Position numbers and translations under genes: made by a program
The notes under the pieces: generated by a model
The model's database searches: none
Told to the model about the DNA's origin: nothing
What the model saw: the letters and a program-made list of their open reading frames with translations, nothing else
Origin: Candidatus Cloacimonetes bacterium HGW-Cloacimonetes-2
GTDB taxonomy: Bacteria > Cloacimonadota > Cloacimonadia > Cloacimonadales > Cloacimonadaceae
Assembly (NCBI GenBank): GCA_002842035.1
Contig: PHBP01000001.1
Coordinates: 419,198 to 483,197 of the forward strand
DNA length: 64,000 nt
Reading direction: 5' to 3'
Shown: piece after piece, positions 9,401 to 38,649 of the stretch
How the letters are laid out: the number at the start of each line of letters is the position of its first letter
Position numbering within the stretch: position 1 is the stretch's first letter

Positions 9401-11861
9401 GAAGCTCGTAGTGGTCCCAATTGTTACCGGTCCTTCCATTGCTGTAAGTCCCACCAGCTTGAGCTATGGCGATGTAGCAGTGGGAACAAGCTCTGCACAG
9501 CAGTTTACTATCTCCAATTCCGGAGGACAGACCCTTACGGGTAGCATCACCACACCCGCTGGTTACTCAGTAAGCCTGGCAGGCAGAGCAGGTGAGCAAG
9601 GCTTTGTGGTATCGAGCCGCAACACCCTTCCCTTCAGCGTCAATGCCGGCACAATGCAGACCTTCTCCCTCAGCTTTGAGCCTACAACAGCGATTACCTA
9701 CAACGGTAATGTAACGATCAGTTCCAATGCCACAAGCAATCCCAATCAAAGCATAGCTGTGAGTGGAACAGGCTATATGCCCCCGGCTATTGTGTTCTCC
9801 ACACAGGCTCTTGAGAATACTATGCTGCCAGAGGAACTGGATTCCCAGAGCTTTACCATTGGTAATTCAGGCTCCCGGGATCTTAACTACTCAATGTCAC
9901 TACAAGAGGTGATCAGGCTGGATAGTGCTGTTAGAACTAGCCGGGATCGCAATATCACAGGCAGTACGCTGGAGCTCGATACCGATACCTACAATGCCGG
10001 CTCTACCGTGGAGTGGACCTTTAGCCTGTACAACGGCAGCAGTGATCAAGAATGGCTCAAAGACCTTTACCTCACCTTCCCCGCAGGTGTCACAGTCAAT
10101 AGTGCTACAAACTTTATTGGCGGTACTGGTGGAGATATGATTCCCAATCTCACCAGCGGAAGCGGGATCACCATTCATTGGAATGGCACAGATGCCACCA
10201 ACTGGGGCGTAGTACGAGACGGAGAGACAGCCACAGCTACACTCAGTGTCACAATTGCCCCCGGCACAAGCGGTAATCTATCTCTGCCCTATCAAATCAA
10301 TGGCGATATCTATGGCACTGAGCCACATACTTTGGTGGGGGAACTGGTGATAAGCCAGAACTTTACTCCTCTCGCCTGGCTTGATCTTGATACTACTAGC
10401 GGCACAATAGCCCAGGGAGCCACGGATCTGATCAATGTACTGTATGATAGCTCCAGCCTCAGTCCAGGCACCTACAGTGCCAATATATTCGTCAATAGCA
10501 ACGATCCCATTCATCCCCAAGAGATCGTAAGCATCTATCTGGAAGTCTTAAATCCCAATAGTGCGCCTGTCATTGATATTCCGGATTATCTGAGCTTTGG
10601 CAGAAATGATCAGTTTACAGAGGATTTCTCGCACTATATCAGCGATCCGGATAACGATCCGCTTACGCTAAGCTACAATGGCAACACCAATGTTGACGTC
10701 CAGATCGATGGAATGCTGGTAACCTTCAGCTCCATAAACGGCTGGGTTGGTAGTGAAACTATCACCTTTACGGTCGATGACGGTTTGCTCGATAACAGCG
10801 ATACAATCACGATCGAATTCACCAATTCCACGCCCTGGGTTGACTTACCCGAATCAATCAACTTCGGCAGAAACGCCAGTTATGACCTTAATCTGGAACC
10901 CTATGGCGGTGATGACGACGGAGACGGACTGGAACTTACTTTCAGTGGTAATACCAATATTCTGGTAGAGCTTAACGGTCTGATCGCCACTTTCAGCGCT
11001 CCCAATGGCTGGGCTGGAAGCGAAACCATCACCTTCACGGTTGATGACGGTATAACCACAGCAAGTGACGATATGCTGGTCACAGTGACCAATACCGCTC
11101 CTTGGGTCGATCTCCCGGAAAGCTTCAGCTTTGCCAGAAATGCCAGCCTGGATGTTAATCTGGAACCCTATGGCGGTGATGACGACGGAGATGGACTGGC
11201 AGTTACCTGGAGCGGAAACACCAATATCGTGGTCGAACTTAACGGCTTGATCGCCACTTTCAGCGCTCCCAATGGCTGGGCTGGAAGCGAAACCATCACC
11301 TTCACGGTTGATGACGGTGTCGATACAACCAGTGACGCTGTGCTGGTAATGGTTACAAATAGCGCACCCAGTATCGATCTACCAACAGCCTGGTCATTTG
11401 ATCAGGATACGATAGGCACCCAAGACCTTAGCATCTATGCCAGCGATCCTGAAAATGACAACCTCGATTACAACTACAGTGGCAATACCAATATCATTCT
11501 GGATATCACGGATGGAGTCCTGACGGCTACACCCGTGGCAGGATGGTATGGCACAGAGCTCGTTACGATCACGGTCTCCGATGGCTATCTACAGACCTCA
11601 GATACCTGGGAAATCATCGTCGAGCAGGTGATCAGCGATCTGGATACGCCCATTGTTACAATCAACCTCGTCGCAGGAAACTGCATTCTGGATTGGCAGG
11701 ACGTGCCCAATGCCAGCTACTACATCGTCTATGCCTCGCCCGATCCTTATGGAAGCTATACTGAGCTGGGACAAAGCTATGAAAGCCAGTACCAGTTTAT
11801 CACAATGCCCGATACGGCTTTCTTCAAGATCGTAGCGGTTTACACCGAAGCAAGTAAATAA
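6471..11861 (+). CDS. Large multidomain subtilisin-like (S8) secreted protease
   Basis: A 1796-residue exported serine protease. A signal peptide (about 1-22) and a propeptide-like region precede the S8 domain. The catalytic triad is Asp200 (IIDTGVD), His234 (GHGTACSG) and Ser419 (NGTSCATP). After the protease come an Ig_17-like domain (about 480-580), a jelly-roll-like domain (about 585-700), an Fn3 domain (about 710-800), a Cloacimonadota-type domain (about 805-985), choice-of-anchor-D-like domains, four cadherin-like repeats of about 90 residues (about 1363-1720) and a C-terminal Fn3-like module. No type IX sorting signal is seen. Repeats 2 and 3 are almost identical at DNA level, pointing to recent duplication or conversion. 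Probable role is extracellular protein degradation or adhesion (inference). Confidence 0.9.
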   Translation: MRKTMLLMLILLVPVLICANAILSTSLQRPRFAANILKIQLSTDAIARTDLPTEYYSEAPEFGIEELDELAASYGSHKILRAHIRMKDRAFEQRTGFDRWFLIIFDNALDVESALGEFKLQKQWIDEAIPEYYAYTTAVPNDTYYANNWGHNNTAQLPVYTGGSHSGAGVGTIGFDVDAQLAWDQSQGYGSIYTIIAIIDTGVDTAHPDLRLVAGYDYGDNDGNPMDDSADPGHGTACSGVAAGRANNALGVTGIAGGCTVMPLKIADSAGNLGFTAIENALTHCGNNGVDVASMSFGAEGGMGEGDSPSTDTALEYAYSNGVTLLAATANSNTSAIAYPSNHNKVISVGAASPTGQRKSTSSSDGENWWGSNYGVATIDDPNAVDIMAPTILPATDITGAGNGYNTTSDYYMWFNGTSCATPYAAGVAALLISKDPSLTPAQVRTALTSTATDMTFDGGAGWDRYTGYGMVNANNALLSLVPGMPTCQITAPIGGSVIDLGSTVTINANATDSDGTIIDVKFYIDNVLQFTDNASPYSWSWNTTGYSGGSHLIKAVATDNSSNTAQSEITISLLAPPNEGFESGNFAAYPWVNSSSIPWTVQSIEKFSGTYAARSGAIAENGSTEISVTVNVTEAGNISFYQKVSSESGYDYLRFFIDGVQQAQWSGTGSWTQQSYPVNPGAHTFMWRYTKDVSVNAGSDCAWIDHIIFPPTGTMYAIPQNFSADAGNGYVQLSWQAPVSGSPTGYKIFRDSTLLTTVTGLSYTDYAVVNETSYSYYLKAVYAGGESSPTATIVATPTAIVTTEFIIGTETTSTGSTEGCPVNVYYKSLHGQSVYTRAELNAAGIIGPINITQLGFNITGLPDQVMPTFLVRMGHTSQANAASWVLEPSLTTVWSATSYQPAATGWNMYTLSTPFLWNGTDNIVVDTAFGLVPTYTSTGTVQFTTVSTGYRFVRVDTADQTSVFAGGSTTNSRPNVKLVVVPIVTGPSIAVSPTSLSYGDVAVGTSSAQQFTISNSGGQTLTGSITTPAGYSVSLAGRAGEQGFVVSSRNTLPFSVNAGTMQTFSLSFEPTTAITYNGNVTISSNATSNPNQSIAVSGTGYMPPAIVFSTQALENTMLPEELDSQSFTIGNSGSRDLNYSMSLQEVIRLDSAVRTSRDRNITGSTLELDTDTYNAGSTVEWTFSLYNGSSDQEWLKDLYLTFPAGVTVNSATNFIGGTGGDMIPNLTSGSGITIHWNGTDATNWGVVRDGETATATLSVTIAPGTSGNLSLPYQINGDIYGTEPHTLVGELVISQNFTPLAWLDLDTTSGTIAQGATDLINVLYDSSSLSPGTYSANIFVNSNDPIHPQEIVSIYLEVLNPNSAPVIDIPDYLSFGRNDQFTEDFSHYISDPDNDPLTLSYNGNTNVDVQIDGMLVTFSSINGWVGSETITFTVDDGLLDNSDTITIEFTNSTPWVDLPESINFGRNASYDLNLEPYGGDDDGDGLELTFSGNTNILVELNGLIATFSAPNGWAGSETITFTVDDGITTASDDMLVTVTNTAPWVDLPESFSFARNASLDVNLEPYGGDDDGDGLAVTWSGNTNIVVELNGLIATFSAPNGWAGSETITFTVDDGVDTTSDAVLVMVTNSAPSIDLPTAWSFDQDTIGTQDLSIYASDPENDNLDYNYSGNTNIILDITDGVLTATPVAGWYGTELVTITVSDGYLQTSDTWEIIVEQVISDLDTPIVTINLVAGNCILDWQDVPNASYYIVYASPDPYGSYTELGQSYESQYQFITMPDTAFFKIVAVYTEASK

Positions 11862-31580: not shown

Positions 31581-31667
31581 GTGGGTCCGTCATCCTGACG
31601 GACAGTGAAAGTGGGTCCGTCATCCTGACGGACAGATGTACACTGAGCGACAGGATGTCGCTCCCAC
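31581..31667. repeat. REP cluster: two forward and one inverted hairpin
   Basis: GTGG plus stem GTCCGTC, loop ATCCT and GACGGAC occur at 31581-31603 and 31611-31633. On the minus strand GTGG plus GAGCGAC, ATCCT and GTCGCTC lies at 31645-31667. The GTRG head plus hairpin is the layout of REP sequences mobilised by RAYT transposases, and the same units surround the RAYT gene 5.5 kb away. Confidence 0.88.
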
Positions 31668-32071: not shown

Positions 32072-32998
32072 CTATGTAATAGTAGCCTTTATCCTATTGA
32101 TTAGTTTTTCTTTCAAGTCTGAGGGATCTGACCATTTTATATGATTATACTGTCTTGTATCGAAATGTAAATTATCAAAATCATCTTCTCTGCAGCACCA
32201 TACTACAGGTATCCCAAGCCCTAATGCATGGCCAGCCTCAAAGTAAACCCCACCTCGCTGACCAGTGAAATCCGCAATAACAAAGGCAGACTGCTTAATC
32301 TCTTTTACGATTCTATCGCAGATTTTACCGTTGTGGTCTTTTTTGTCAATTCGGAACGCTTGGTATCCACATTCTGTAACTGCTGGTGCTATAGCCTCAA
32401 TATAGGCATTATCAAGATCAGGATCTCCAAACTTCATAGCTACAAATACCTGCTTTGATTCTGGATGGCGTTTTCGTAGCTGTGAGATCCTTTCCCACCC
32501 CTTCACGTATAAAAAAAAGGTGAAGCTGTCATTTCCCGTTGTATAAGGTCCAATGTATTCAAGATCTGCAGCCATTAATAGAACAGCTTGCAACTCACTA
32601 TCATCATGTATATACAGCAGTGGAATATCATGTTTGGGTATGGAAATTCCAACATTGAATCTAGATGCCTTACGACTACAATACTGCATAAGAATGTCCA
32701 GAATTTCCAGAGGGTCATCAGGAACGCGGACACTGCTCTTGATCTCATCGTAGTTCTCTATAGTTAACTCTATCTCATCCGTGGATGCTTCAGATAAATT
32801 CCTAAGTACAATGCTCATATCAAGATCAGGATTCTTTAAGTCGTAGTAATCAACAAGCCTCGTATTCAACTGCCAGGATGTTACTTTATACCGACCGCAG
32901 TATTGACAATCAACTTGATACTTCGCATTGCCATCATAGTAATGGATTTCCATGTTCGTCCGATGGCATATCGGGCATTTGTCAAATTTGTATTTCAT
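32072..32998 (-). CDS. Zinc-ribbon protein with nucleoside deoxyribosyltransferase-like domain
   Basis: A 308-residue protein. The N-terminus has a four-Cys zinc ribbon (Cys8, Cys11, Cys31, Cys34). A middle region (about 45-175) is unassigned. The C-terminal domain (183-300) is of the nucleoside 2-deoxyribosyltransferase/TIR-like Rossmann type: KQVFVAMKFG, AIAPAVTECGY, FRIDKKDHNGKICDRIVKEI, FVIADFTGQRGGVYFEAGHALGLGIPVVW. Glu254 in VYFEAGHA sits where the catalytic Glu of this fold is found. Such domains occur in nucleotide-targeting conflict and abortive-infection systems (established for the fold). That it is a defence effector here is inference from its place behind a restriction operon. 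Confidence 0.72.
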   Translation of the reverse strand: MKYKFDKCPICHRTNMEIHYYDGNAKYQVDCQYCGRYKVTSWQLNTRLVDYYDLKNPDLDMSIVLRNLSEASTDEIELTIENYDEIKSSVRVPDDPLEILDILMQYCSRKASRFNVGISIPKHDIPLLYIHDDSELQAVLLMAADLEYIGPYTTGNDSFTFFLYVKGWERISQLRKRHPESKQVFVAMKFGDPDLDNAYIEAIAPAVTECGYQAFRIDKKDHNGKICDRIVKEIKQSAFVIADFTGQRGGVYFEAGHALGLGIPVVWCCREDDFDNLHFDTRQYNHIKWSDPSDLKEKLINRIKATIT

Positions 32999-33068: not shown

Positions 33069-35579
33069 CTATCCTTCCACATTCACAAACTCCCTCGCTA
33101 CATCCTTATAACTGAGGACAGTGTCAAAGAGTCCAATATCTTCGCCTTCGTGTTTATTGATGCCGGTATAGCTGAGGCTGGCATCTTCGTAGCGTTTGAA
33201 TTTGTAGATAGCGTCATTCATCAGAGGGCTGTTGAAGACGTTCAGGCTTACCAAGAGTTCAAAATCTTTCTGGCTCAAGCCGGTTACTTTTTTGAACAGA
33301 GCCGGTTCCAATTGAGAGATAACGTCTTTAAGAGAGCGTTCCCGGTAGTCTGTGAGATACATAAAAATCGGAATCCTCGTAGCAAACTTGATCAGCTTCT
33401 CCTGTATCATCTTGCGTTTGCTACGATACTCTTTCTCTGCCTCTGTTAGTTCTTTCTTTTGCTCCGGGCTCAGTTTGCTGTCATTTGCTTCTTTCTTTGC
33501 CTTTTTCACTGCCTCGGATTTATTGATGATGGTCTCGATATCCTGATTAAGACTGCGGAATCCTTCGATATTCTGCAAGGCTTTCATAGCAGCTTTGTTA
33601 TCTATCAGGCGTTGCAAAGTAGAATTATCCACATTCACAAGGAGAGCGCTTTCCCAACGCCTTGCCAAAAGGGTGGCAGTGGTACCGCTGGCTGCCATAT
33701 CAAGGATACCCGCTGCATCGATCTGCCGCATCGAACTGCCATCAAAAGCCAAAACCGGCAGGAAGCTGATGAATTCTTCCACCAGCTTTTCCTGATTCTT
33801 TTCGATAGAACCCAGTCTGCAACTGTATTCAGCAATCTGCCTTAGCGCTCTATCGGGAGCAAAATCAAAGACATAACATTCCTCTTTGATCACTAGTTCT
33901 TCATTGGGACTTAATCCATCGGGATTTATGATAGTCCAGGGAGATTGCACTCTAAAGGCTGCCTGAAAATAAGTCTCCGGACTTGTTAGATTGCGCAACA
34001 TCAGGATTCCAGACCAGGGGCGTATGGTTACCCCAGTGGTGAGTTTCCCACAGGATAAAGTAATGGTCTTGGTTTTTAGAGGATCAGCCATAGCTTTTTT
34101 TACAGGACCCAGGGCGGCAACGCCAATCCCGGCAGCAGCTCCGGCTGCCAAGATTACCTGATAATCGTGATAAAAACTATTCTGCCGCTTTGCCAAAAGA
34201 GCTTTCATTGCGTGACATGCTGACACGCTCGGCAAGAACCAAAAGCTATGAGAGAGAAGCCCCAAAAGCCTAACATCCGAATAGGGCAGCGGTGGTTTCT
34301 GAGCTCCCAGCTTCAGATCGTCCAGATTGGAAGCCCGATGTTCACCCCGAATCAAATTGAGCCATTTCTGTACTTCATTTTCATATTTGAATTTGGCTTT
34401 GTCCCCCAAACCCTCAGCAGAGAAAAAAACATTGAGGTCAAACTCGTTGAATTCACCTTTCATAGCAATGTCCCTGATCTCATCGGGGAGTTGATAGGTG
34501 AGCATCACCATTCTGGGCAATGCTGCATAAGGGTTCTTATCTCCCTGCCAATCCTGCTTTGCTTTTTGTTCATCGGAATAAGTCCAGTTGTAGATCTGCT
34601 CTTCGATGAATTCTCCTGTGGCTATTGCCCGAAAAGGTGTTCCCGAGAGATATAGATAGGCACTAGTGGTAACAGGCATAATGCCTTCATCAAAAATCGA
34701 GAGACCATCTTCGATTTGCTTATCCAGATCATCTTCTGCCTCAAAGAGCTCTTTTGCCCTCTCGCGCCAAGCTCCGAAGTGGTACTCATCCAAAACCACA
34801 CAATCCCAATTTGTGGTGTGCACCCATTCATTCTTGGTCTTGATGCCCCCGGTAGAAGGATTCTTGCCCAGATAATCCTGAAATGAGCCAAAGCAGACTA
34901 TGGGCTTGGATTGATCTGCCTTATCAAAGCTAAGGCCTCCCGGCTTGATAAACTGCCACTCGGCAAAATCGACGTGCATCCTTAGATCATCTTCCCAGGC
35001 ATCCTGCACAGCAGGCTTGAAGGTAAGCACCAAAAGTTTGGTCCAGCCCATTTCCTTTGCCAGCTTGTAGGTGGCAAATGTCTTGCCAAAGCGCATCTTG
35101 GCATTCCAAAGAAAGTGAGGAGCCTTCCCTTTGTTTGATTTATCACAGTACCAAGCACGAAAGTAAGATGCTGTCCGCTGGACTGCCTCCTGCTGTTCCG
35201 GCCTCAGATCAAAATCCAGACAGCGACTATCAAATGCCAATTGACCTTCGCGAACTGCCCGGATAGCGGAGAGCACTTCGGTTACAGTGCACTCAAACCA
35301 CTCTCCAACAGGATTGTGCTTGCCATTTATGCGGAGCATAGAATGAACATCGTGATCGGTAAAAGCTGTGCCATCAGCACGCATGGCAGATTCCTCCAGC
35401 ACTATCCTGTAGGGAGCTTTGCCGGGAGTTTTGATGGGATAAATCTGCTCCAGCCTCTCTTTGGCAGTCCGGGTGGTGTAACCAACCTTTAGCAAGCCCT
35501 TGAACTGGGGGTTGCTATCCTCATAAGCATAGATGAGAGGCTTTAGCCCGGGCCGGGGTGGAAAGAAATCCTTAGCCAT
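33069..35579 (-). CDS. GIY-YIG nuclease fused to SF2 helicase (restriction subunit)
   Basis: An 836-residue protein. The N-terminal domain (about 13-95) is GIY-YIG/T5orf172-like: LIYAYED, GLLKVGYTTRTAKERLEQIY and GEWFECT, giving the usual Tyr, Arg and Glu. The helicase core follows: motif I MRFGKT (about 165), motif II DEYH (about 263), motif III SGTPF (about 311), a TGVTIRPW motif near 515 and motif VI QAAFRVQSPW near 540. A long charged C-terminal region includes a Lys/Glu coiled coil (about 690-735). It starts 5 bases after the Eco57I-like methyltransferase stop. Together they resemble an ATP-dependent restriction system with cleavage by the GIY-YIG domain. Recognition site unknown. Confidence 0.85.
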   Translation of the reverse strand: MAKDFFPPRPGLKPLIYAYEDSNPQFKGLLKVGYTTRTAKERLEQIYPIKTPGKAPYRIVLEESAMRADGTAFTDHDVHSMLRINGKHNPVGEWFECTVTEVLSAIRAVREGQLAFDSRCLDFDLRPEQQEAVQRTASYFRAWYCDKSNKGKAPHFLWNAKMRFGKTFATYKLAKEMGWTKLLVLTFKPAVQDAWEDDLRMHVDFAEWQFIKPGGLSFDKADQSKPIVCFGSFQDYLGKNPSTGGIKTKNEWVHTTNWDCVVLDEYHFGAWRERAKELFEAEDDLDKQIEDGLSIFDEGIMPVTTSAYLYLSGTPFRAIATGEFIEEQIYNWTYSDEQKAKQDWQGDKNPYAALPRMVMLTYQLPDEIRDIAMKGEFNEFDLNVFFSAEGLGDKAKFKYENEVQKWLNLIRGEHRASNLDDLKLGAQKPPLPYSDVRLLGLLSHSFWFLPSVSACHAMKALLAKRQNSFYHDYQVILAAGAAAGIGVAALGPVKKAMADPLKTKTITLSCGKLTTGVTIRPWSGILMLRNLTSPETYFQAAFRVQSPWTIINPDGLSPNEELVIKEECYVFDFAPDRALRQIAEYSCRLGSIEKNQEKLVEEFISFLPVLAFDGSSMRQIDAAGILDMAASGTTATLLARRWESALLVNVDNSTLQRLIDNKAAMKALQNIEGFRSLNQDIETIINKSEAVKKAKKEANDSKLSPEQKKELTEAEKEYRSKRKMIQEKLIKFATRIPIFMYLTDYRERSLKDVISQLEPALFKKVTGLSQKDFELLVSLNVFNSPLMNDAIYKFKRYEDASLSYTGINKHEGEDIGLFDTVLSYKDVAREFVNVEG

Positions 35580-35584
35580 TGTGT

Positions 35585-37078
35585 TTAAGCCATATCCTTA
35601 ATCTTGGATTCAATAAAGGTGGATTCAGTTTCAGATATTTTGTACTTCTCCTGAAGCATGCTGTCTGTCCACTTTGTGTTCATGTCCAGCACGGGAACAA
35701 AAGAATAAGCATCTTTTGTAATATGGTGTGAATACATGAATTGCGACACTAGAAATCTAAAGAACTTGGTCTTCATATAGGCAACGAGGTTCTCGGATTC
35801 TATCAAGGAATCGTATGCACCAATAACTAAATACGTTTCGGTACAAATTGTTCCGGGAGGCAGAATGTCTATCTTGGAAAATACTCTCCTTTTTCCATCC
35901 TTTCCGGGATTGCCAGCATGATCATAACCTACATATGCTGTCACGACCTTCCATTTATCAATGAGATCTGAACCCACTGTTATCAGTTCTCGTGGGTACG
36001 GTCCTTCTCCCTCGTTCCATCTCAGGATGATATCTCCATGGTCTTTGGGGCGCACGATAGTGCTAAGCCCAAATGGTTTCCTTGATGATACTTGATCACT
36101 CATTTTTGTTTCCTTCTGATCCAGTACTTTTCGGATTATTGAGACTGATTGGCCGTGTCTGATCAGAGTATGAAACTCACTTAGCTCGCGCATTGAATCA
36201 ACTTGTTCACCACTGTGGATATTTATAACATTGCATAATCCAGGATTATCTCTATCCCACAAGAAATAGCAAACACCCCCTGCCAGATCTATTCCAGGAA
36301 AGACTTCGGAGGCATTCTCGTAATCGACCAGAACTCTTATTCTTTTATCATTAAGCATTATGCTTCTGAATCCATCTAAGCCCTTCCCACCACCAAACCA
36401 TCTGGCCGGGATAATCATAACCAAGTATCTTGGATTCAGCTTTATTGCCTGTAGGACAAACTCATTATATATAGGTGTTGCACTTCTGCCAAATCCTCCA
36501 TCACTAAGCTGATAGGGCGGATTACCAATAATTACGTCAAATTTCATTTTAAAGAGCTCCTCTGGTTTTTCTGTGTGGATGAATCTGTAAGCATGGCTTT
36601 CCAATTCATCACCTCTGGAGTAATTGCCTTCACTTGCCCCGCAATAGATACATCTGCCATTTTTCCAAGTGTGTTCCAGGCTTTCATAGGATATATTGCC
36701 TTCTGCTTTTCTGAAGGCAGAGCTTATTGAGTATTGACCATTTGCTTTTTTGGAGCAGTAGAGAGACCTGCGGGAGATTTGGGCTGTAAGATCTGTGATA
36801 GCAAGCCCAAATAGCTGGTTTTTCATTATGTGGTCAATACGTTGCTGGCGATCCGGGATTTGGGATTCCAAACCTTTATCCAGCCTTTTGGCAATCTCCC
36901 GGAGGAATATACCGGATTTGCAGCCGGGATCCAGAAAACGGGATTTCTTGTTTGTCCAGAGCTTTTCTGGTAGCAAGTCCAGCATTTGGTTTGCCAGCTC
37001 TGGAGGAGTAAAGACCTCATCACTGCTTAGGTTTGCAATGCAGGAGAGGACATCAGGATTGTAGCTGGTTCTTAGCAT
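35585..37078 (-). CDS. Eco57I-like N6-adenine DNA methyltransferase
   Basis: A 497-residue gamma-class methyltransferase. VFTPPELANQMLDLLP leads to motif I in the variant form FLDPGCKSGIF (48-57, normally DPACGSG). Motif IV NPPY is at 186-189 after FDVIIG. A Cys pair CIYC (143-146) could bind zinc. The C-terminal half (about 300-497) is probably target recognition. It lies between the RAYT insertion and the helicase gene and most likely protects host DNA. The motif I substitutions may reduce SAM binding, and the neighbouring small methyltransferase with a canonical motif I may complement it (inference). Confidence 0.85.
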   Translation of the reverse strand: MLRTSYNPDVLSCIANLSSDEVFTPPELANQMLDLLPEKLWTNKKSRFLDPGCKSGIFLREIAKRLDKGLESQIPDRQQRIDHIMKNQLFGLAITDLTAQISRRSLYCSKKANGQYSISSAFRKAEGNISYESLEHTWKNGRCIYCGASEGNYSRGDELESHAYRFIHTEKPEELFKMKFDVIIGNPPYQLSDGGFGRSATPIYNEFVLQAIKLNPRYLVMIIPARWFGGGKGLDGFRSIMLNDKRIRVLVDYENASEVFPGIDLAGGVCYFLWDRDNPGLCNVINIHSGEQVDSMRELSEFHTLIRHGQSVSIIRKVLDQKETKMSDQVSSRKPFGLSTIVRPKDHGDIILRWNEGEGPYPRELITVGSDLIDKWKVVTAYVGYDHAGNPGKDGKRRVFSKIDILPPGTICTETYLVIGAYDSLIESENLVAYMKTKFFRFLVSQFMYSHHITKDAYSFVPVLDMNTKWTDSMLQEKYKISETESTFIESKIKDMA

Positions 37079-37087
37079 AGTTCCTCC

Positions 37088-37256
37088 GTAGGTCCGTCTG
37101 TAGGTCCGTCTGTGGGTCCGTCTGTGGGTCCGTCATCCTGACGGACAGCATATTGTTCTGAGCGACAGGATGTCGCTCCTACAAGCTCTTTTGTAGGTCC
37201 GTCTGTGGGTCCGTCATCCTGACGGACAGCAGAATCTTCTGAGCGACAGGATGTTT
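37088..37256. repeat. REP array downstream of the RAYT gene
   Basis: Four GTRG-GTCCGTC heads in a 12-bp tandem lead into a complete ATCCT-loop hairpin, followed by an inverted GAGCGAC hairpin with its CTAC foot. A second doublet (37193-37256) has a damaged last stem (GAGCGAC paired with GTTTCCTC). The second doublet encodes the last residues of the RAYT protein. Confidence 0.92.
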
Positions 37257-37784
37257 CCTCACTATATGATCAAAGTACTCTTTTTGCCAGAAGTGCCCTG
37301 ATCTACCCAGTAACTTATTGATCTCATTGGCAGTGTATGACTTGATTGATTTCATTATATCCGATAACTGATGATTTCCAATGGGCTCGATCAGCATATG
37401 TACATGATTCGCTGATATGGTGTATTCCACAAGATTGTATCGTACATTATTAAAGTGTTTCAGAGCGCCGAGAACAATATCTTTTATGGGCTTTTGAGCC
37501 AGCAGACATTCACCATAGCTATTGTCCAGCCAACGTTCCAGCTTGCTTGTAAACAGTCTGTGATATTGTGCTTTCTGGTCTCCGGATGATGGTAACTGAT
37601 GCATAGATTGCCAATCATCGCGATCTCGTAGCCATTCATTTAGCTTAGCATGAGGAATGGAATCTGCAGTGCGGAAGGTTACAAAGTAGCAGACTGCGTC
37701 TTGTCTCCAATGGGGTAGCTTACCATGGAGGACTGGCTTACCATGGAGGACTGTATATTCTGCTGCTTTATCAAAGAAATTCAT
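37179..37784 (-). CDS. REP-associated tyrosine transposase (RAYT, Y1/HUH)
   Basis: A 201-residue single-strand transposase of the IS200/IS605-like RAYT group. It has the RAYT N-terminus LPHWRQDAVCYFVTFRTADSIP, the HUH motif NHVHML (His127, His129), catalytic Tyr150 in SIKSYTANEIN and the signature GHFWQKEYFDHIVR. ATG 37784 lies 1 base after the stop of the upstream methyltransferase and gives a family-like start. The frame is open to 37865, but that extension is only REP-derived TDPQ repeats. The C-terminal 12 or so residues are also REP-encoded. An 18-bp tandem duplication encodes VLHGKPVLHGK. REP arrays lie on both sides, the usual RAYT setting. Confidence 0.92.
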   Translation of the reverse strand: MNFFDKAAEYTVLHGKPVLHGKLPHWRQDAVCYFVTFRTADSIPHAKLNEWLRDRDDWQSMHQLPSSGDQKAQYHRLFTSKLERWLDNSYGECLLAQKPIKDIVLGALKHFNNVRYNLVEYTISANHVHMLIEPIGNHQLSDIMKSIKSYTANEINKLLGRSGHFWQKEYFDHIVRKHPVAQKILLSVRMTDPQTDLQKSL

Positions 37785-37785
37785 A

Positions 37786-38649
37786 TCAATGTTTGGGATC
37801 TTCAGAGGGCTGCTCTGTGGGTCCGTCTGTGGGTCCGTCTGTGGGTCCGTCTGTGGGTCCGTCATCCTGACGGACAGTAAAATCTTCTGAGCGACAGGAT
37901 GTCGCTCCTACAAGCTCTTTTGTAGGTCCGTCTGTGGGTCCGTCATCCTGACGGGCAGTAAAATCTTCTGAGCGACAGGATGTCGCTCCTACGGGCTCAA
38001 TACTGAGCTTCAGATAATGCACTGGTGGATAATCCTGAATCGGGATTGGAATATACGTCTCTTCTCCCAGATCAGAAATATGCTCAAAGAGGGGTAGCTC
38101 TACCATAGATTCATTTTGGACTATACTATTAAAGCTGAAGTCACGGCGCTTCAACTTACTGCTTCCAATGAATGACCATTCAGGCATAATAATTGGCTGA
38201 GGATTATCTCCTTTAGTTTGCATACTAAGGGCATCGCCATGTATGATGTTTAAAGCGAGGATCAATCGAACCGATTCTCTGCACCTATCATCAGTCTGGT
38301 TTTTAAAGAGCCTAAGGTAGTCTATGTCAAAGATACCGAATAGCCTTTCCCGGCATTGGATTACATTCTCCAATAGAATGTCTATTCCATAAATGCTTGA
38401 TATAGCCTGGATTGCGTTTCGCTCATATTCTCGTTTGCTTTTTGCATATCGTCTTTCCACGACCAATAACTTGCGCTTGAGGATTTCTGCCAGAAAGTTT
38501 CCTGTGCCACATGCTGGCTCAAGAAAGCGGGATTCGATGCGTTCAGTCTCGTGTTTAACCAGATCCAGCATTGCATCCACTTCTCTTTTTGCGGTGAATA
38601 CTTCGCCATGTGCCGCTACACGTTCCTTTGATATGATGTGTTTATCCAT
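37786..38649 (-). CDS. Small DNA methyltransferase-like protein with REP-encoded tail
   Basis: A 287-residue protein. Residues 16-60 carry the N6-methyltransferase start EVFTAKREVDAMLDLV and canonical motif I FLEPACGTGNF (42-52); a motif-III-like YGIDIL follows (87-92). No NPPY motif is present, so it is unlikely to methylate alone. It probably acts with the 497-residue methyltransferase, which has NPPY but an altered motif I (inference). From about residue 220 onward the protein is translated REP array (GATSCRSEDF and DGPT repeats), so the native C-terminus was probably replaced by the RAYT/REP insertion. It starts inside the end of a 49-residue ORF (8-nt overlap). Confidence 0.75.
   Translation of the reverse strand: MDKHIISKERVAAHGEVFTAKREVDAMLDLVKHETERIESRFLEPACGTGNFLAEILKRKLLVVERRYAKSKREYERNAIQAISSIYGIDILLENVIQCRERLFGIFDIDYLRLFKNQTDDRCRESVRLILALNIIHGDALSMQTKGDNPQPIIMPEWSFIGSSKLKRRDFSFNSIVQNESMVELPLFEHISDLGEETYIPIPIQDYPPVHYLKLSIEPVGATSCRSEDFTARQDDGPTDGPTKELVGATSCRSEDFTVRQDDGPTDGPTDGPTDGPTEQPSEDPKH
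37817..37992. repeat. REP array upstream of the RAYT gene
   Basis: Tandem 12-mers GTGGGTCCGTCT lead to a full GTGG-GTCCGTC-ATCCT-GACGGAC hairpin, then an inverted GAGCGAC hairpin ending CTAC (GTAG on the minus strand), then a second doublet of the same plan with one stem change (GACGGGC). It lies wholly within the reading frame of the small methyltransferase and spans the possible longer RAYT start. Confidence 0.93.

Follow-up and report, generated by a model that had tools for sequence, protein, structure and literature searches.

A RAYT gene and its REP arrays in a restriction operon of a Cloacimonadota genome, with related RAYTs in frame inside host genes

A RAYT gene bracketed by REP hairpins lies between two methyltransferase genes of a restriction operon in a Cloacimonadota genome, and many members of its clade are found in frame inside unrelated host genes. 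The explanation that we consider likely is that this RAYT and the REP pairs on its flanks form a unit called a REPtron, which would have inserted at the overlapping stop/start junction of the two methyltransferase genes; that this copy has lost its catalytic nucleophile; and that it represents one case of a wider pattern of RAYTs residing within host genes. The window is the whole stretch of DNA analysed, 64,000 nucleotides (C2:419198-483197) of a source genome (G000) of 2.51 Mb in 14 contigs that is 99.55% complete. The phylum suggested in an earlier note, made from the letters alone, is also the one named in related genome records. On the minus strand, the operon runs from MTase1 through the RAYT and MTase2 to a GIY-YIG/helicase subunit, and the ORF map and Pfam agree with that note in placing the RAYT between two methyltransferase genes of one operon. 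MTase2 and the GIY-YIG/helicase subunit together match a single type IIG restriction-methyltransferase profile, PDLC03626 (PADLOC). The features of the locus are:

31581..31667, no strand: second REP cluster of the window, extragenic, with two GTCC-type hairpins and one GAGC-type hairpin
33069..35579, minus strand: restriction subunit, GIY-YIG (T5orf172) plus helicase (domain and PADLOC matches)
35585..37078, minus strand: MTase2, Eco57I family, with NPPY motif (Pfam Eco57I 1e-38; PADLOC)
37088..37258, no strand: REP array downstream of the RAYT, with tandem half-REPs GTRGGTCCGTCT and two REP pairs, one degenerate
37179..37255, minus strand: REP-derived 3' end of the RAYT frame, standing in place of a YIxNNP-type gene end (comparison with G013)
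37182..37784, minus strand: RAYT, TnpA_REP-like Y1 HUH transposase, starting ATG (MNFF), stop codon at 37179-37181, HUH pair His127/His129
37224..37226, minus strand: codon 187, Ser in place of the family's nucleophilic Tyr (RAYT alignments)
37786..37992, minus strand: REP array upstream of the RAYT, forming the in-frame C-terminal tail of MTase1 (VGATSCRSEDFTARQDDGPTDGPT...), with a period of 81 bp plus 12-bp half-REPs
37786..38649, minus strand: MTase1, N6-adenine methyltransferase-like, SAM motif FLEPACGTGNF, native part about 37993-38649

The GTGG/GTAG hairpins named in that note do flank the RAYT on both sides, as GTGGGTCCGTCATCCTGACGGAC on the plus strand and GTAGGAGCGACATCCTGTCGCTC on the minus strand. 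The two forms alternate in inverted orientation; their stems differ by compensated changes, and the foot and TCC loop are held in common. Both arrays are partly coding, providing the tail of MTase1 and the 3' end of the RAYT. The 12-bp half-REPs GTRGGTCCGTCT, each made of the foot and the left stem arm, stand in tandem at 37088-37134 and 37814-37863 in about four copies per side, possibly left by slippage or by cutting at the foot.

Beyond the locus, the pattern GTRGGNNCGNCATCCTGNCGNNC with up to two mismatches has 102 matches in the genome and its reversed form has 0; every REP count was paired with such a reversed-pattern control, and the controls were near zero. The RAYT is thus accompanied by a genuine REP family with dispersed copies. 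The REPs form inverted pairs of GTRG hairpins about 9-13 bp apart, dispersed and mostly extragenic (28 of a sample of 30 lie outside long ORFs), the arrangement that defines REP/REPIN (BIME) elements. The earlier note had listed two contrary outcomes, a genome lacking further hairpins and a related RAYT lacking hairpins nearby. The genomes hold the opposite: about 100 more copies in this one, and flanking hairpins in the close relatives as well. Interpretation of the REP hairpins as mere terminators was rejected.

Across the phylum, the strict REP pattern is nearly absent from the 124 other genomes. REP stems vary between species, and the foot and loop are constant. The looser pattern GTRGN6CATCYTG, counted in all 125 phylum genomes, is most frequent in G043 (148, control 1), the source genome (99, control 4) and G013 (58, control 5), followed by G008 (46, control 6); the three highest counts belong to the three genomes with a close RAYT (RAYT identities 57-60%). 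RAYT homologues as such occur in 67 of the 125 genomes, several distant ones with GTAG hairpins, and the suggestion that such a pair is unusual in Cloacimonadota does not hold as stated.

Perfect REPs at the RAYT locus and in the neighbouring cluster are all of the GTCC type (5/5), whereas perfect partner REPs elsewhere are all of the GTGC type (31/31; Fisher 2.7e-6). The GTCC-type hairpin is found nowhere else in the genome and differs by one compensated pair from those GTGC-type partner REPs. This split fits either a second RAYT that has since been lost or a locus that may have stopped exchanging with the dispersed family; because of that one-pair difference, the dispersed REPs could stem from such a different RAYT. 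REP clusters are also unevenly spread over the contigs, with 13 in 249 kb on C1, 8 in 201 kb on C14, 1 in 467 kb on C2 outside the window and none on C10 (258 kb) or C3 (150 kb) (Monte Carlo p 0.0008), possibly reflecting a replication-related or historical bias.

The identification as a RAYT is borne out by the ORF at 37179-37865 on the minus strand, which matches Pfam Y1_Tnp at 1.1e-11. Its match to the NCBIfam equivalog NF047646 (5e-12) reaches 46 bits, below the 80-bit cut-off; the same model matches all 20 clade members tested with E below 0.001. A profile search of the PDB recovers the fold of ISDra2/IS608 TnpA and E. coli TnpA_REP (4er8), whereas a PDB search with the window RAYT as a single sequence gave no match. 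It is the only RAYT gene in its genome. A single-copy tnpA-like gene with only a weak, below cut-off match to NF033573 falls outside the definition of IS200/IS605 elements.

The proposed HUH pair, His127/His129, is confirmed by an NHVH motif at residues 126-129 in an invariant column. At Tyr150, named earlier as the catalytic tyrosine, both sister RAYTs have Phe; the column of the nucleophile falls instead on Ser187. That column was anchored by ISDra2 TnpA, in which structure 2xm3 has Tyr132 and 2xo6, described as a Y132F mutant, has Phe. In Y1 RAYTs, the catalytic tyrosine lies in a C-terminal YIxxNP motif (PMC6006769); the G013 sister retains it in the sequence KYIQN, and all 42 of the fused relatives described below have Tyr at this column. 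The window frame passes through REP sequence from residue 178 on, and Ser187 occupies the nucleophile column because the REP array has replaced the RAYT 3' end. With the nucleophilic Tyr lost, the copy is probably inactive. Of the motifs of subclass 2.4, NH[IFV]H and WQ are present in the window RAYT, and YIxNNP is absent there and represented by YIQNHD in G013. Identities to the sister of 71, 79 and 41% by codon position show, at the level of coding sequence, past purifying selection on the gene. An exact 18-bp tandem duplication of GCTTACCATGGAGGACTG at 37718-37753, in the N-terminal part, adds six residues that are absent in the sisters.

The insertion point is defined by comparison with operons that lack it. 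Twelve homologous operons in other genomes have no RAYT, and their MTase1 stop overlaps or abuts the MTase2 start. The same contact of stop and start, with neither RAYT nor REPs, is seen in a second copy of the operon in the source genome (C2:330252-330887; L087, L116), which lies about 127 kb away and has an MTase1 that is 62% identical. In G013, a congener, a RAYT with REPs lies at exactly the same MTase1/MTase2 junction in the same orientation, with different REP stems; a recent insertion specific to the source species was rejected on this ground. As to the earlier remark that a RAYT embedded in a defence operon is unusual, the position is real and recurs in a second species, and it exemplifies a wider, apparently undescribed habit of the RAYT clade. 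In G038 (L113 2580-2690), a more distant operon has a RAYT-free REP pair at this junction as well, lying in the MTase1 frame, which could be either a parallel insertion or a REPtron scar.

In both the window and G013, MTase1 stays in frame through the array, and its stop lies one base from the RAYT ATG (TGAtATG in the window, TAGcATG in G013). Each array has one open forward frame of three, and a random frame would be open with odds of about one in three per species, so that the in-frame array may be taken as modest evidence for selection. The upstream array thus keeps the MTase1 frame, and MTase1 ends in REP-encoded residues. Because its stop abuts the RAYT ATG, the RAYT is probably expressed by translational coupling to MTase1, a suggestion resting mainly on these two species.

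Between G013 and the window, the restriction subunit is 89% identical, MTase2 68%, MTase1 66% and the RAYT 56%; rayt genes that change faster than their neighbours have been reported before (PMC2817692). The other window genes have no match in 14 kb of G013 sequence around the operon. As only the operon genes match, the operon and the RAYT have moved as a unit, and the REPtron would travel along with the restriction-modification operon.

To see the wider pattern, GTDB contigs were scanned with members of the RAYT clade, blind to host genes, and the best 80 loci were taken. In 42 of these, the RAYT is in frame within a long host ORF of 458-1439 codons, and Pfam finds Y1_Tnp together with host domains in all 42. 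The 42 ORFs are not independent: they fall into about 11-12 classes of insertion by host gene, and restriction genes make up five or six of these classes. The restriction hosts comprise Eco57I/TaqI_C type IIG methyltransferases, a PglX-like methyltransferase (by motif), MmeI, type ISP and HsdR. The other hosts are uracil-DNA glycosylase (UDG), RarA/MgsA, poly(A) polymerase/CCA enzyme, a radical SAM protein, an SNF2 helicase and shikimate kinase (RAYT at the end). In type IIG hosts, the insert occupies either a loop ahead of SAM motif I or another immediately behind it, with REP-encoded linkers on both sides; some type IIG genes carry REPs without a RAYT at the other loop. Without exception, the 42 fused RAYTs keep the HUH histidines, a Trp, Glu, Asp and Arg, and the nucleophile Tyr. 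An AlphaFold model of one fused type IIG protein (L134) is poor, with a mean pLDDT of 56.6 and REP-encoded stretches below 50. In L125 and L170 (Lentisphaerae), the RAYT sits inside an ORF in which RarA/MgsA and a methyltransferase domain are already combined. A search of a plasmid collection gave two weak matches only.

Host type follows the RAYT phylogeny closely in a tree of 102 RAYTs, built by a quick method with its deep branches left open. UDG, CCA enzyme, HsdR and RarA hosts each correspond to one RAYT clade, and type IIG hosts to one clade apart from a few free members; host type changes 16 times on the tree versus 60 in shuffles. The type IIG clade spans records from Planctomycetota, Cloacimonadota, Omnitrophota, Acidobacteriota, Verrucomicrobiota, Ignavibacteriota, Caldisericota and Smithella. 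Identity between RAYTs rises with identity between the N-terminal parts of their hosts (rho 0.50, a value reached in 3 of 2000 permutations). Hosts taken from records assigned to different phyla are up to 82% identical, which points to horizontal transfer of the composite host-RAYT gene. The extent of REP dispersal differs among hosts. Of 17 type IIG genomes, 12 have REPs on a single contig only, two have them on a second contig too, and in three they are dispersed (65, 24 and 22 copies). With HsdR hosts, REPs are essentially locus-bound, and in all five genomes with a CCA-enzyme host they are dispersed. The window genome resembles a dispersed genome whose RAYT was later damaged.

Three other explanations were weighed against this one. 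Gene wreckage or assembly artefacts could produce in-frame RAYT-host ORFs, with restriction genes hit because they are large and dispensable. Most of the ORFs do come from metagenome-assembled genomes, insertions do build up in large dispensable genes, and unexpectedly long TnpA_Y1 proteins have previously been put down to gene fusions or annotation errors (PMC6006769). However, the 42 ORFs extend over many phyla and include one from a cultured organism, the HsdR host of Roseibacillus persicicus KCTC 12988 (L126); the motifs of the hosts and the catalytic residues of the RAYTs are retained, and the RAYT clades are host-specific. UDG, CCA enzyme and RarA are not typically dispensable, and among 35 free-standing loci, none showed the same host genes split out of frame. 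We regard this explanation as unlikely. It is somewhat less probable that the window RAYT is still active through another tyrosine, such as Tyr150 or Tyr170, and still spreads REPs. Its ORF is open, its codon positions bear the mark of past selection and the dispersed REPs are highly alike, but the sisters have Phe at position 150, the family column that is Tyr in every fused relative is Ser here, and its neighbouring hairpins have come to differ from the dispersed ones.

That the operon has recruited the RAYT as a working part of the restriction system, for instance as a nickase or regulator, seems very unlikely, the least probable of the three. The shared place and orientation in two species, with probable co-translation, would agree with it, but the twelve homologous operons and the second copy in the same genome lack the gene, the RAYT evolves faster than the restriction subunit (56% versus 89% identity) and the nucleophile is lost in the window copy. 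A role as an essential part of the restriction system was rejected. Under the favoured explanation of a REPtron carried by the operon, the REP family has grown to about 100 copies in the genome, presumably via this RAYT or its ancestor, and the window RAYT then lost its nucleophilic Tyr as the REP array replaced its 3' end. RAYTs of its own and neighbouring clades lie in frame in host genes, for the most part those of restriction systems; their catalytic residues are intact and their linkers REP-encoded, and a RAYT, once inside a host gene, would remain with that host. Mobile restriction genes may thereby give RAYTs expression and transport between phyla, and REPs would then spread in some recipient genomes.

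Among known systems, the window RAYT is most like TnpA_REP/RAYT subclass 2.4, Bertels group 4 (PMC6006769), with which it has in common the motifs NHVH and WQ, long GTRG-footed REPs on both flanks, in-frame reading of REP segments and a distribution over many phyla. One difference is that the window copy lacks the YIxNNP nucleophile motif; another is that many members of the clade are embedded in frame in unrelated host genes, a situation not described in PMC6006769; that survey discarded unexpectedly long TnpA_Y1 proteins. GTAG-tagged and intragenic REPs (PMC3733652) have the same GTAG foot, short stem and inverted pairs, some in coding regions including DNA-repair genes. There, REPs alone are intragenic, whereas in the present clade whole REPtrons are; Cloacimonadota is missing from the phyla listed in that paper. 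E. coli TnpA_REP with its Y/Z2 REPs (PDB 4er8) is similarly a REP-flanked single gene with an HUH fold, but it is free-standing, outside host genes, and has DHLH/YIHYNP motifs (listed in PMC6006769). Inteins offer an analogy in their in-frame persistence at recurrent sites in DNA-metabolism enzymes. Unlike inteins, the fused ORFs show no self-splicing Hint domain among the Pfam hits listed for them, and the RAYT and linkers would stay in the protein.

The prevailing view of RAYTs is that of domesticated, free-standing genes. Earlier papers describe GTAG REPs, the presence of RAYTs in many phyla, and REPs in coding regions and tnpA genes (PMC3733652, PMC6006769, PMC2817692). Searches of the open-access literature for RAYT fusions gave nothing of relevance, and we met no account there of a complete RAYT lying in frame within a host gene, although subscription journals may hold one; the habit is apparently undescribed so far. 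We are evenly divided on a broader proposal, that REPtrons constitute an intein-like, non-splicing class of in-frame mobile element that would enter loops of restriction and DNA-repair enzymes, be expressed within the host protein, ride mobile restriction genes between phyla and seed new REP families. The mechanisms by which REP families disseminate are described as poorly understood in the abstract of PMC8266576, and REPtrons in restriction genes would be a concrete vehicle by which such families reach new genomes. The stages would run from REPs confined to the restriction gene in most recipients, through dispersal in a few, to a family orphaned after RAYT death, as in the window. Long RAYT-methyltransferase or RAYT-HsdR proteins merit study rather than discarding, and many restriction and repair proteins may contain REP-encoded segments.

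Two further features of the window lie outside the operon. The restriction operon is followed just downstream by an ORF at 32072-32998 on the minus strand, which has a PADLOC TIR effector match at 1.3e-11 and also a weak nucleoside deoxyribosyltransferase-like match; it is possibly a further defence gene. At 10888-11380 there is a tandem repeat with a unit of 267 bp in 1.8 copies and 84% matches.
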